DNA of 64,000 bases, from the NCBI GenBank assembly GCA_021793395.1, contig JAJYSU010000007.1, positions 1 to 64,000 of the forward strand, in the 5' to 3' direction. Below are positions 22,205 through 50,554 of this stretch, piece by piece (positions within the stretch are counted from its first letter, which is position 1; every line of letters begins with the position of its first letter). Under the pieces are notes generated by a model, which was not told where the DNA came from, searched no databases, and saw nothing but the letters and a program-made list of their open reading frames with translations. The translations under genes were made by a program, and so were the position numbers. This stretch comes from Actinomycetes bacterium (GTDB lineage Bacteria > Actinomycetota > Acidimicrobiia > Acidimicrobiales > RAAP-2).

Positions 22205-22277
22205 GCCTGGGTAGCTCAGTCGGTAGAGCAGCGCATTCGTAATGCGCAGGTCAAGGGTTCGAATCCCTTCCCAGGCT
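22205..22277 (+). tRNA. tRNA-Thr (CGT anticodon)
   Basis: The cloverleaf is complete: acceptor GCCTGGG/CCCAGGC, D-arm GCTC...GAGC, anticodon stem GCGCA/TGCGC with loop TTCGTAA (anticodon CGT), and T-arm AAGGG-TTCGAAT-CCCTT. The discriminator is T and CCA is not fully encoded. Its 3' 27 bases are overlapped on the other strand by the murD2 reading frame. Confidence 0.95.
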
Positions 22278-45985: not shown

Positions 45986-47389
45986 GTGAAACAATATAGA
46001 AGTATTAAGAGTATAAGTAATGGTAGTAGCCACCATGCTATTGCTAAGTTATTGGGGCAACTGACGATACTTTGCAGCGTTTCTATCGTCGGTGTCAGCT
46101 TGTTTGCCGCGACTGCAAGTGCTGCAGTTCAGGTCGTCACATTCGCTGAGAACAACAGCCCGAGTGACACCGTGACAACCTTCCAGTCGGAGGGGGCGCC
46201 GACAGACTTAACATTGTTTGCACACCTTCAGACACCGTTTGTGAATCCCGGGTTTACATTTATGGATTGGAGTACGGCTCAGAATGGTAGCGGTACCGTG
46301 TACGCAGATGGAGCATTGTACTCATTTTCTTCTGACATTGTTTTGTATGCACAGTGGCTGGAGAATTCCGTCACATTCTACGAAAATGATTCTGGTAGTG
46401 ATCTTACGAAGGTAGTTCAGTTTGGGAGTACTGCCTCCCCGCTAGATCTTGTTGCAAGTTTGAGTCCGACATTTTCGAATCCAGGTTACAACTTTGCAGG
46501 TTGGACAACTGGTGAAAATGGTACTGGCTCTTCGTACGGAAATGGTGCAACTTATGACTTTCTGAACGGTTCCACGTCCCTCTACGCGCAGTGGACTCCC
46601 GCGACCGTGGGGGTGACGTTCGCGGGTAACGGGGGGACCGTGAGTTCGACTCAGGCGAGTTACACCACGGGTTCGACGCCGGTGTCACTGCCGACGCCGA
46701 CCTATCCCGGCTACGACTTCACCGGCTGGTTTAGCGCGCCAGCGGGCGGCAGCTTCGTGGGACCGGCGGGTACTGCCTTCACTCCCACCTCGCCGGTCAC
46801 CCTCTACGCGCAGTGGAAGAAGCTTCCACCCGTTGCCGTGCGATTTAGCGTCAATGGTGGTCGGGGGACTGTGGCAGCGTTGTCGAGTTACTCCGGAGCG
46901 ACTATCGCGGTTCCCGCCCGGGCGCGGGTGACGCGGTCGGGCTACCGTTTCACTGGGTGGAACACGTCTCCCTCGGGCAGGGGCACGGCGTATCGCGCGG
47001 ACGAGCAGGTGACCCTCGCTTCGTCAATGGTCCTTTACGCCCAGTGGCAAGCCAACTCGACGGTTACCATGCTCGGTTCGGTCGAGCCGTTTCCGGCTCG
47101 CGCCGCAGCCGTACCAGGTCGACTCATTGGTCAAGTTGACAAACTCGCCGCCATCATCGTGGGGAAGGGCTATTCGCACGTCATCGTGTACGGGTTCACG
47201 ACTGAGATGGGCACGACAGCTCGCCAACGCACGACGAGTGCCGCGCGTGCCCAAAGTGTCGCCCGTCTCCTGCGCGTGGCGCTGGCTCGACGACGTGATC
47301 GGGCGGTGAACGTGCGCGCAGTGGGCGAGGGGTCGGTTCGCGGTCTGTCCGCGGCTAACTCCCGTCGCGTCGAGATTGTGGGGCAGTGA
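45986..47389 (+). CDS. Secreted InlB-type repeat protein with OmpA-like C-terminus, compositionally chimeric
   Basis: The product is 467 aa from GTG, with AGGGGG four bases upstream. A signal peptide ends near ATASA-AVQV (47). Four Listeria-Bacteroides (InlB B) repeats follow (about 48-124, 128-203, 208-277, 284-354), each ending LYAQW and carrying GWxTxxxG-like turns. Residues 365-467 are an OmpA-like peptidoglycan-binding domain ending SRRVEIVGQ. It is probably a cell-surface protein held to the wall. The signal peptide and repeats 1-2 are AT-rich (about 43-47% GC in samples); from about 46570 on the gene is about 67% GC. The function is unknown. Confidence 0.85.
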   Translation: MKQYRSIKSISNGSSHHAIAKLLGQLTILCSVSIVGVSLFAATASAAVQVVTFAENNSPSDTVTTFQSEGAPTDLTLFAHLQTPFVNPGFTFMDWSTAQNGSGTVYADGALYSFSSDIVLYAQWLENSVTFYENDSGSDLTKVVQFGSTASPLDLVASLSPTFSNPGYNFAGWTTGENGTGSSYGNGATYDFLNGSTSLYAQWTPATVGVTFAGNGGTVSSTQASYTTGSTPVSLPTPTYPGYDFTGWFSAPAGGSFVGPAGTAFTPTSPVTLYAQWKKLPPVAVRFSVNGGRGTVAALSSYSGATIAVPARARVTRSGYRFTGWNTSPSGRGTAYRADEQVTLASSMVLYAQWQANSTVTMLGSVEPFPARAAAVPGRLIGQVDKLAAIIVGKGYSHVIVYGFTTEMGTTARQRTTSAARAQSVARLLRVALARRRDRAVNVRAVGEGSVRGLSAANSRRVEIVGQ

Positions 47390-47453: not shown

Positions 47454-47525
47454 AGCCGGTGGAGGGATTCGAACCCACGACCTGACGATTACAAATCGCC
47501 TGCGCTACCACTGCGCCACACCGGC
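47454..47525 (-). tRNA. tRNA-Thr (TGT anticodon)
   Basis: On the minus strand: acceptor GCCGGTG/CACCGGC, D-arm GCGC...GCGC, anticodon stem GGCGA/TCGTC with loop TTTGTAA (anticodon TGT), and T-arm GTGGG-TTCGAAT-CCCTC. The discriminator is T. Its 3' end faces the chimeric repeat gene and the AT-rich island. Confidence 0.95.
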
Positions 47526-48895: not shown

Positions 48896-48925
48896 TTGAC
48901 ACTGGCGCCCACGGTCGGCCATGAT
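48896..48925 (+). promoter_or_regulatory. Promoter for the SAM riboswitch-thrC transcript (TTGACA-18-CATGAT)
   Basis: A perfect TTGACA -35 is 18 bases from CATGAT. Transcription would begin near 48932, just where the riboswitch P1 helix starts. Confidence 0.6.
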
Positions 48926-48931
48926 GGACGA

Positions 48932-49025
48932 GTCATCAAGAGCGACTGAGGGACGGGCCCTTTGAAGTCGCGACAACCAGTGCGAGCACGTCGTGTCGTA
49001 CCAGGTGCCAAAGCCCGATCGATGA
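48932..49025 (+). ncRNA. SAM-I (S-box) riboswitch upstream of thrC-moaD
   Basis: The S-box core is clear: P1 TCATC (48933) pairs with GATGA (49021); AAGAG; P2 GCGACT/AGTCGC; the conserved GAGGGACGGGCCCTTTGAA; ACAACC; and GGTGCCAA before the closing strand. SAM binding stabilises P1. The 3' P1 strand is immediately followed by AGAGGAG, the thrC ribosome site, and an upstream GATG (48922) could pair with CATC as an anti-P1. Control is therefore probably at translation. SAM-I is favoured over SAM-IV by this core, but a covariance search should decide. Confidence 0.85.
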
Positions 49026-49034
49026 AGAGGAGTT

Positions 49035-50282
49035 ATGACGTTCGCTACTGGTCTTATCTGTCGAGAGTGTGGGGCGACGTACCCCGCGCTCGCGCGCTAC
49101 GCGTGTGATTTTTGTTTCGGCCCACTCGAAGTCTCCTACGATCTCGACGCCGCCAAGGGTGCGGTGACGCGTGAGTCCATTGAGCGCGGGCCACTCTCTA
49201 TGTGGCGTTACGCGGATCTTCTGCCGGATCCTGGCGACGCACCCGCTGACCTCGGTGCCGGGTGGACGCCGCTGCGCCGGGCAACCAGGCTGGCTGAGGT
49301 CCTCGGCGTACGTGAGTTGTGGCTGAAGGACGACACGCGAAACCCCACGGGCTCGTTTAAGGATCGGGTGGTCTCCGTCGCGCTGTCGAGTGCGCGCCGC
49401 TTGGGCTTTACGACCGCCGCCTGCGCATCGACCGGGAATCTCGCGACGTCGGTCGCGGCACACGCCGCCGCCATCGGTTGGCCGAGTGTGACCATCATCC
49501 CGTCCGACCTCGAGAAGTCCAAGATCGCGATGGCCGCGATATTTGGAGGGACGGTGCTGGGCGTCGAGGGAAACTACGACGACGTGAATCGCCTCTGCGT
49601 GGAGTTAGTCGCCGAGCACGAGGACTGGGCGTTCGTCAACGTCAACTTGCGCCCCTACTACGCCGAGGGATCCAAGACTCTGGCTTTCGAGATCGCCGAG
49701 CAGCTGGGATGGCGTGCCCCCGACCAGGTCGTGGTGCCGGTGGCGTCGGGCAGCCAATTGACGAAAGTGGCGAAGGGCTTCGAAGAGTTCGTGACGCTGG
49801 GCCTGATCGACGGACCGGCGCCCGTCCTCTTCGGGGCCCAGGCTGAGGGGTGCTCCCCGGTCGCGACGGCGTTTCGCTCGGGTGCGGACGTGGTGACTCC
49901 CCAGCGTCCTCACACGATCGCGCGATCGCTGGCTATCGGCAACCCGGCCGATGGGCTGTACGTCCTCGATGAGCTTCGCGCTCACGGAGGCGACTGCGGG
50001 TCAGTGCCTGACTCTGACGTCCTCGAGTGCATTTCGCTGCTGGCTCGTACCGAGGGTATCTTCGCGGAGACTGCCGGGGGGGTGACGATCGCGTCGCTGC
50101 GTCAGATGCTGGACCGCGGGACGATCGACCCCGATCGGTCGATCGTGGCCATTATCTCGGGTCACGGACTTAAGACGCTGGACGCGATCGTGGAGACGGC
50201 CACGGTCAGTTCGACTATCAGCCCGTCGCTCGCGGACGCCGAGGAGGCACTGCGCTTCCACCAGCTGGTGGCGGCCTCGTGA
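49035..50282 (+). CDS. thrC: Threonine synthase-family PLP enzyme under SAM control
   Basis: The product is 415 aa. An N-terminal zinc ribbon (Cys9, Cys12, Cys24, Cys27) precedes a fold-type II PLP domain, with the Schiff-base Lys in TGSFKDRVV and the glycine loop around TGNLATSVAA. The family converts O-phosphohomoserine to threonine. Here the gene is behind a SAM riboswitch and overlaps a MoaD/ThiS-like carrier by GTGA. That context points to sulfur metabolism, so it may instead, or also, make homocysteine from O-phosphohomoserine and a protein thiocarboxylate. The family is certain; the reaction is open. Confidence 0.85.
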   Translation: MTFATGLICRECGATYPALARYACDFCFGPLEVSYDLDAAKGAVTRESIERGPLSMWRYADLLPDPGDAPADLGAGWTPLRRATRLAEVLGVRELWLKDDTRNPTGSFKDRVVSVALSSARRLGFTTAACASTGNLATSVAAHAAAIGWPSVTIIPSDLEKSKIAMAAIFGGTVLGVEGNYDDVNRLCVELVAEHEDWAFVNVNLRPYYAEGSKTLAFEIAEQLGWRAPDQVVVPVASGSQLTKVAKGFEEFVTLGLIDGPAPVLFGAQAEGCSPVATAFRSGADVVTPQRPHTIARSLAIGNPADGLYVLDELRAHGGDCGSVPDSDVLECISLLARTEGIFAETAGGVTIASLRQMLDRGTIDPDRSIVAIISGHGLKTLDAIVETATVSSTISPSLADAEEALRFHQLVAAS

Positions 50283-50554
50283 GCGTCATCGTTCGACTAC
50301 CCAGTCAACTTCGGTCCCTGGCCGGCGGAGTCGGTGAGGTGCCGGTCGAAGCGGGAACCGTCCGCGACGCCATTGTCGCCGTGGATGCTCAGTATCCGGG
50401 AATCGCCTTTCGAGTATTGGATGATCGCGGGGTACTGCGACGTTTCGTCAACGTGTTCGTCGCCGACGAGGACGTCCGATTTCTCGACGGGCTCGACACC
50501 GTCGTCGAGGCCGGACAGACGGTCTCTCTGGTGCCGGCGGTAGCCGGAGGCTGA
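50279..50554 (+). CDS. MoaD/ThiS-family sulfur carrier protein
   Basis: The product is 91 aa: a ubiquitin-like beta-grasp protein ending in the exposed Gly-Gly (PAVAGG) that is adenylated and turned into a thiocarboxylate in this family. It is translationally coupled to the thrC-like gene and shares its SAM-riboswitch transcript. No moa or thi genes are nearby, so a molybdopterin or thiamine role is not supported. A dedicated sulfur donor for the neighbouring PLP enzyme, as CysO is for CysM, fits better. Confidence 0.88.
   Translation: MSVIVRLPSQLRSLAGGVGEVPVEAGTVRDAIVAVDAQYPGIAFRVLDDRGVLRRFVNVFVADEDVRFLDGLDTVVEAGQTVSLVPAVAGG

Follow-up and report, generated by a model that had tools for sequence, protein, structure and literature searches.

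A probable SAM-I riboswitch-controlled metM-metO operon for homocysteine synthesis from O-phosphohomoserine and carrier sulfur in an Acidimicrobiia actinobacterium

The window analyzed here, that is, the whole 64-kb stretch of DNA from an Acidimicrobiia actinobacterium, carries a promoter, a SAM-I riboswitch aptamer, and two overlapping genes, metM and metO, in close succession. The features of this locus are as follows.

48896..48925, plus strand: sigma-70-type promoter, TTGACA-18-CATGAT (10/12 consensus matches and recurrence in close relatives)
48930..49028, plus strand: SAM-I riboswitch aptamer, P4-less form (RF00162, 55.1 bits)
48954..48957, plus strand: pseudoknot strand 1, CGGG, in the P2 loop (partner CCCG at 49014-49017)
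49021..49032, plus strand: P1 3' strand GATGA (49021-49025) running into the ribosome-binding site (RBS) AAGAGGAG (~49025-49032), as read in the sequence
49035..50282, plus strand: metM, ThrC-like fold-type-II PLP enzyme of 415 aa (TIGR00260, PALP, MetM clade)
50279..50554, plus strand: metO, ThiS/MoaD/CysO-like sulfur carrier of 91 aa (Pfam ThiS, 48.6 bits)

Elsewhere in the window, two tRNA genes (22205-22277 and 47454-47525) have anticodon loops that read CGU and UGU and would both encode threonine tRNAs. A 467-aa open reading frame at 45986-47389 combines repeats of a GYxFxGWxxxxxGxGxxY-like unit with a C-terminal part resembling OmpA, and looks from these motifs like a repetitive surface protein.

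The product of metM matches the threonine synthase model TIGR00260 (thrC) with 261.6 bits against a cut-off of 167.1 and also passes Pfam PALP. Its predicted PLP lysine is K109, within SFKDR, and its N terminus holds a Cys4 knuckle of C9, C12, C24, and C27, four cysteines that are invariant among MetM-like proteins. The start of metO overlaps the stop of metM (GTGA), and a groEL-like gene lies downstream of metO. The carrier ends in ...VPAVAGG, with a free Gly-Gly, and its closest solved structure is CysO of Mycobacterium tuberculosis (3dwg/3dwm, E 9.9e-17). Both the promoter with its SAM-I core and the overlapping pair of a thrC-like and a MoaD/ThiS-like gene, the latter with a free Gly-Gly end, had been described in an earlier sequence-only reading and are all found at the coordinates given there. 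The MetO tail varies among relatives, being a free GG in the window, GGCC in genome G230, and GGCA in genome G166 (loci L005 and L007); a JAB-type peptidase is present in G230 and G166, whose MetO extends past GG.

The two promoter boxes occupy 48896-48901 (TTGACA) and 48920-48925 (CATGAT) and are separated by 18 nt. This is the one sigma-70-like site within 2 kb (shuffled sequences give a mean of 0.3), and TTGACA with a -10-like box at equal distance occurs in close relatives (e.g., L005, L006, L034, L035, and L037-L043). The predicted transcription start (~48931-48933) coincides with the P1 5' strand. The aptamer match clears the RF00162 gathering score of 44.4 with E = 5.8e-10, computed over the full window and all Rfam families, and is the top match in its clan, RF00634 being outscored at 48930-49028. 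Within the 2.13-Mb genome, the metM leader is the only match to RF00162.

Covariation among relatives agrees with this assignment. Across 18 distinct sequences, the 26 named pairs of the aptamer are 96.8% formed and seven of them covary, with changes on both sides; these pairing values were reached by 0/500 shuffles, and structures slid out of register collapse. The pseudoknot between the P2 loop and J3-4 comprises four pairs that are 100% formed, one of them with a compensatory change: CGGG/CCCG becomes CGGC/GCCG in five relatives, and pairing is kept in 100% of cells. The aptamer is predicted to bind SAM. The minimum-energy fold of the leader did not reproduce the aptamer (z = -1.04), and the covariance model and covariation were preferred as tests.

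The window leader resembles SAM-I (RF00162) in its core, in helices P1 to P3, in the P2-loop/J3-4 pseudoknot, and in the placement of the RBS in the P1 3' strand, but differs in P4. In 19/19 aligned leaders of the window's class this helix is reduced to a 3-nt linker from the pseudoknot to P1, with P1, P2, P3, and the pseudoknot all retained, and the window aptamer shows an alignment gap against RF00162 where P4 would be expected. A P4-like hairpin is seen at the corresponding place in leaders from Streptomyces, Pseudonocardia, and Frankia. The SAM-I/IV variants, unlike the P4-less leaders described here, are said to miss the P2 internal loop (PMC2864571).

Most aligned relatives have a purine-rich RBS and a start codon directly after the P1 3' strand, and we propose that positions 49021-49032 of the window act as a translational expression platform. 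When SAM is plentiful, P1 would form and bury the RBS, which would turn off translation of both metM and metO. The mechanism is of an already established kind, since SAM-I riboswitches can carry the RBS within the P1 3' side and direct translational control by SAM-I is frequent in Actinobacteria (Barrick and Breaker, PMC2258182). A terminator-like hairpin at 49090-49108 was considered as an expression platform and set aside, as it lies within the coding sequence, over Cys-Asp-Phe-Cys codons.

When MetM is placed beside canonical ThrC (PDB 2d1f, 6cgq, and 2zsj), the same PLP family, the SFKDR lysine, the STGN motifs, and the presumed O-phosphohomoserine substrate are shared, whereas the extra Cys4 knuckle, the carrier, SAM control, and 24 positions fixed differently, such as the GNAG loop of ThrC, which is ASGS in MetM, set the two apart. 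The window MetM is 57% identical to the MetM-like proteins of Streptomyces (L075 and L103) versus 34% to the ThrC of its own genome. A tree of 35 proteins places the 23 MetM-like rows, the window and Streptomyces included, all in one group (100/100), with the own-genome ThrC and other ThrC-like proteins outside it. Showing neither the hom-ThrC grouping nor the GNAG loop, the window MetM falls outside canonical ThrC. The canonical function is encoded on contig C32 of the same genome, where the ThrC gene adjoins that of homoserine dehydrogenase (hom-thrC), and the window MetM is therefore free for another role.

A precedent for such a role exists in Streptomyces. As described in PMC12172450, Hasebe et al. 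(2024, AEM 90:e01247-24) identified Streptomyces MetM as a homocysteine synthase that uses O-phosphohomoserine as its substrate and averts methionine auxotrophy; metO is the putative sulfur-carrier gene adjacent to metM, and a SAM riboswitch lies upstream of S. albulus metM. The Streptomyces loci L075 and L103 show the order SAM riboswitch-metM-metO, as in the window, and on the evidence of clade, gene order, and riboswitch the window pair is orthologous to Streptomyces MetM/MetO. The likeness to S. albulus lies in a ThrC-like enzyme with a neighboring carrier and a SAM riboswitch, together with the identity to Streptomyces L103 given above; the window differs in its overlapping genes (GTGA), its aptamer without P4, the presence of metY-metX in the genome, and the free Gly-Gly end of its MetO, which in L075 and L103 ends in GGC. 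It is thus well supported that the window metM-metO, with its trimmed riboswitch, is a fresh example of an already published system and not a new invention.

Placed beside this precedent, most of what the sequence-only reading had suggested holds. Its central proposal, homocysteine formation from O-phosphohomoserine and carrier sulfur, is supported by what is reported for the Streptomyces orthologue (PMC12172450) and by clade, gene order, and riboswitch. The gene order, which it thought might occur in other actinobacteria, is found in Streptomyces (L075/L103) among others and also in several other phyla, and the second thrC for which it advised a search is the hom-thrC on C32. Its statement that no demonstration of the reaction was known has been overtaken by the 2024 report on Streptomyces MetM/MetO (Hasebe et al., as described in PMC12172450). 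Among the circumstances that it named as speaking against its proposal, a conventional homocysteine pathway is indeed present, in the form of metY-metX, but the lack of a second thrC is not.

The pair recurs widely. Of 296 sampled genomes of the phylum, 108 encode a MetM-like protein, defined by at least 52% identity, with ThrC-type and other matches lying apart at ~33-43%. The carrier gene adjoins the MetM-like gene in 28/30 loci, the window included, and in 28 of the 34 loci of a second, named set that includes Streptomyces, Acidithrix, Cyanobacteriota, Chloroflexota, Nitrospirota, Aquificaceae, and Omnitrophota. A SAM riboswitch was found upstream of metM in 12/19 and in 11/20 further loci (23/39 in total). 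Because both the adjacency and the riboswitch recur, a chance association is excluded. The riboswitch is absent from the cyanobacterial and Nitrospira loci tested; as cyanobacteria lack it, it is not a strictly defining feature of the MetM/MetO system. At one MetM orthologue (L026), a T-box leader (RF00230, 102.9 bits, 1143-1441) replaces the SAM riboswitch, and its specifier, which aligns as AUG in the Rfam alignment, is probably that of methionine. Two unrelated regulators therefore both point to methionine.

Taken together, we consider it very probable that the metM-metO operon of this actinobacterium serves to make homocysteine from O-phosphohomoserine and carrier sulfur under SAM-I control; by orthology, the window MetM itself would be the homocysteine-forming enzyme. 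MetO would be loaded with a C-terminal thiocarboxylate, most likely by a rhodanese-MoeB fusion whose gene lies apart from metM-metO in the genome, and ThrB would make O-phosphohomoserine, which MetM would bind and from which its PLP chemistry would eliminate phosphate. Carrier sulfur could then replace water as the nucleophile at C-gamma to give homocysteine, the details of this addition being conjectural, and MetH would methylate homocysteine to methionine. In the Streptomyces system of Hasebe et al., the sulfur donor is reportedly thiocarboxylated MetO.

The genome of the window (G000, 92% complete) contains the remaining candidates. It encodes ThrB, the homoserine kinase that would supply O-phosphohomoserine, a cobalamin-type methionine synthase (metH), and, ~3 kb from metH, a 388-aa rhodanese-MoeB fusion as the E1/rhodanese candidate for loading the carrier. 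In 8/8 genomes having both, metH and the ThiF-family (rhodanese-MoeB) gene lie ~4-10 kb apart. The metH region of the window's genome (L158, C67:42500-51000) also has genes for a PduO-type cobalamin adenosyltransferase and a leucyl aminopeptidase-like protein nearby.

Carrier-dependent sulfur transfer to PLP enzymes is known from other systems, which offer useful comparisons. The CysO-CysM-Mec+ system of M. tuberculosis likewise couples a CysO-like carrier to a PLP enzyme, but the enzyme in the window is ThrC-like, and amide hydrolysis may be unneeded. A second pair in the same genome, on contig C26 (L004, 1-1644), has a ThiS-family carrier gene directly before, and overlapping, a CysM-like cysteine synthase gene; the C26 carrier ends in VAGGAFA and apparently needs trimming. 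Carrier-based cysteine and homocysteine synthesis would seem to run in parallel in this organism. No JAB-type peptidase was found in the window's genome or in G241, of the same genus, a result that the C26 contig edge weakens for the former; if the absence is real, it suggests that homocysteine leaves MetO without a Mec+-type hydrolase. In the HcyS route of Wolinella succinogenes, a carrier thiocarboxylate likewise donates sulfur for homocysteine, although that route uses a MetY-type (fold-type-I) enzyme and an acylated homoserine substrate, in place of the ThrC-like (fold-type-II) MetM and O-phosphohomoserine. HcyS-dependent homocysteine synthesis is cited as the thiocarboxylate pathway (PMC5764234).

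The conventional route in the window's genome consists of adjacent and overlapping metY and metX, both over their NCBIfam cut-offs and together a complete pair for direct sulfhydrylation, and the same arrangement is found in G241. MetM-MetO is therefore not the only candidate homocysteine route there. Across the phylum the picture is one of complementarity: MetX and MetY are both absent from 80/108 MetM genomes, and genomes with MetX (odds ratio 0.36, p = 1.4e-4) or MetY (odds ratio 0.31, p = 5.6e-6) are depleted in MetM, figures that are taken over the 296 genomes and ignore shared ancestry. Three genomes with metM-metO (G166, G274, and G220; 97-99% complete) have no PF01053 (Cys/Met-metabolism PLP) proteins, and DUF39, of archaeal-type homocysteine synthesis, is absent from all nine genomes searched, these three included. 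In these three genomes, MetM-MetO is the sole candidate for a homocysteine synthase that was found by sequence comparison. From a further genome of the window's genus (G210, 97% complete), metM, a SAM riboswitch, and MetX or MetY over cut-off are all absent. This genome carries a CBS-like gene next to one that resembles a cystathionine lyase/synthase (L116); it is possibly a methionine auxotroph or a user of another route.

The reading of MetM as a dedicated homocysteine synthase has to be weighed against a bifunctional or promiscuous enzyme, forming both threonine and homocysteine from O-phosphohomoserine, with the product set by loaded MetO. The Microcystis homologue, which is 51.6% identical to S. 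albulus MetM and whose gene is without a SAM riboswitch, has threonine-synthase and threonine-deaminase activity in vitro, and its induction did not raise methionine (PMC12172450). The threonine-synthase activity means that MetM orthology is no guarantee of a single function and makes dual activity of the window MetM conceivable, and the passing of the TIGR00260 thrC equivalog far over its cut-off is in keeping with this. Yet a separate canonical ThrC lies beside hom, the GNAG loop has become ASGS with 20 other fixed positions changed, and SAM control, as well as the probable methionine T-box, suits methionine and not threonine. We regard dual activity, which would refine the main reading, as a real possibility somewhat short of an even chance.

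Far more remote is a second threonine synthase that is SAM-controlled by happenstance, with homocysteine made by MetX-MetY only and the carrier serving another pathway. Although metY-metX is present in the genome and MetM is annotated by TIGR00260, such an enzyme would be hard to reconcile with a carrier gene that overlaps metM and is co-conserved across several phyla, with metM-bearing relatives that are without every other homocysteine route tested, and with the Streptomyces orthologue, reported as a homocysteine synthase (PMC12172450); we therefore consider it very improbable. Slighter still is the likelihood of another carrier-dependent PLP reaction, such as CysO-CysM-like cysteine synthesis, to which the position of CysO as the nearest solved relative of MetO might point, given that a separate CysO-like/CysM-like pair is found on C26, that MetM clusters with ThrC relatives and not with cysteine synthases, and that SAM control indicates methionine.

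The proposed homocysteine synthesis by MetM-MetO also bears on a gap described for the order to which the organism of the window belongs. Acidimicrobium ferrooxidans DSM 10331 was reported to be without any known homocysteine pathway, the thiocarboxylate one included, and a homocysteine gap in Aquifex was named alongside it (Price et al. 2018). The genome matching A. ferrooxidans DSM 10331 (G080) contains the order SAM riboswitch-metM-metO (L020, C1:1932591-1936781), and no match to MetX, MetY, or DUF39 was found in it. A weak PF01053 protein of this genome (L121) was considered as a homocysteine synthase and rejected, being below the NCBIfam cut-offs of the models it matches best, of which cystathionine gamma-lyase is the nearest. 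From the gene content, we infer that metM-metO closes the A. ferrooxidans homocysteine gap. A more far-reaching combination of claims is offered tentatively and is, taken as a whole, rather doubtful: that the Acidimicrobiia leaders form an undescribed P4-less subclass of SAM-I, a minimal aptamer of three helices that directly abuts the RBS, that metM-metO is the missing Acidimicrobium pathway, and that in the window species it would be the SAM-repressed branch, with metY-metX in another role.

In conclusion, the value of the finding lies in the correction of an annotation and in the link to Acidimicrobium. As TIGR00260 labels MetM genes as threonine synthase, genomes that depend on them can resemble methionine auxotrophs. 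The presence of a metM-metO pair in an Aquificaceae genome (L088) bears on the Aquifex gap, and the A. ferrooxidans gap of 2018 becomes a directly testable prediction.
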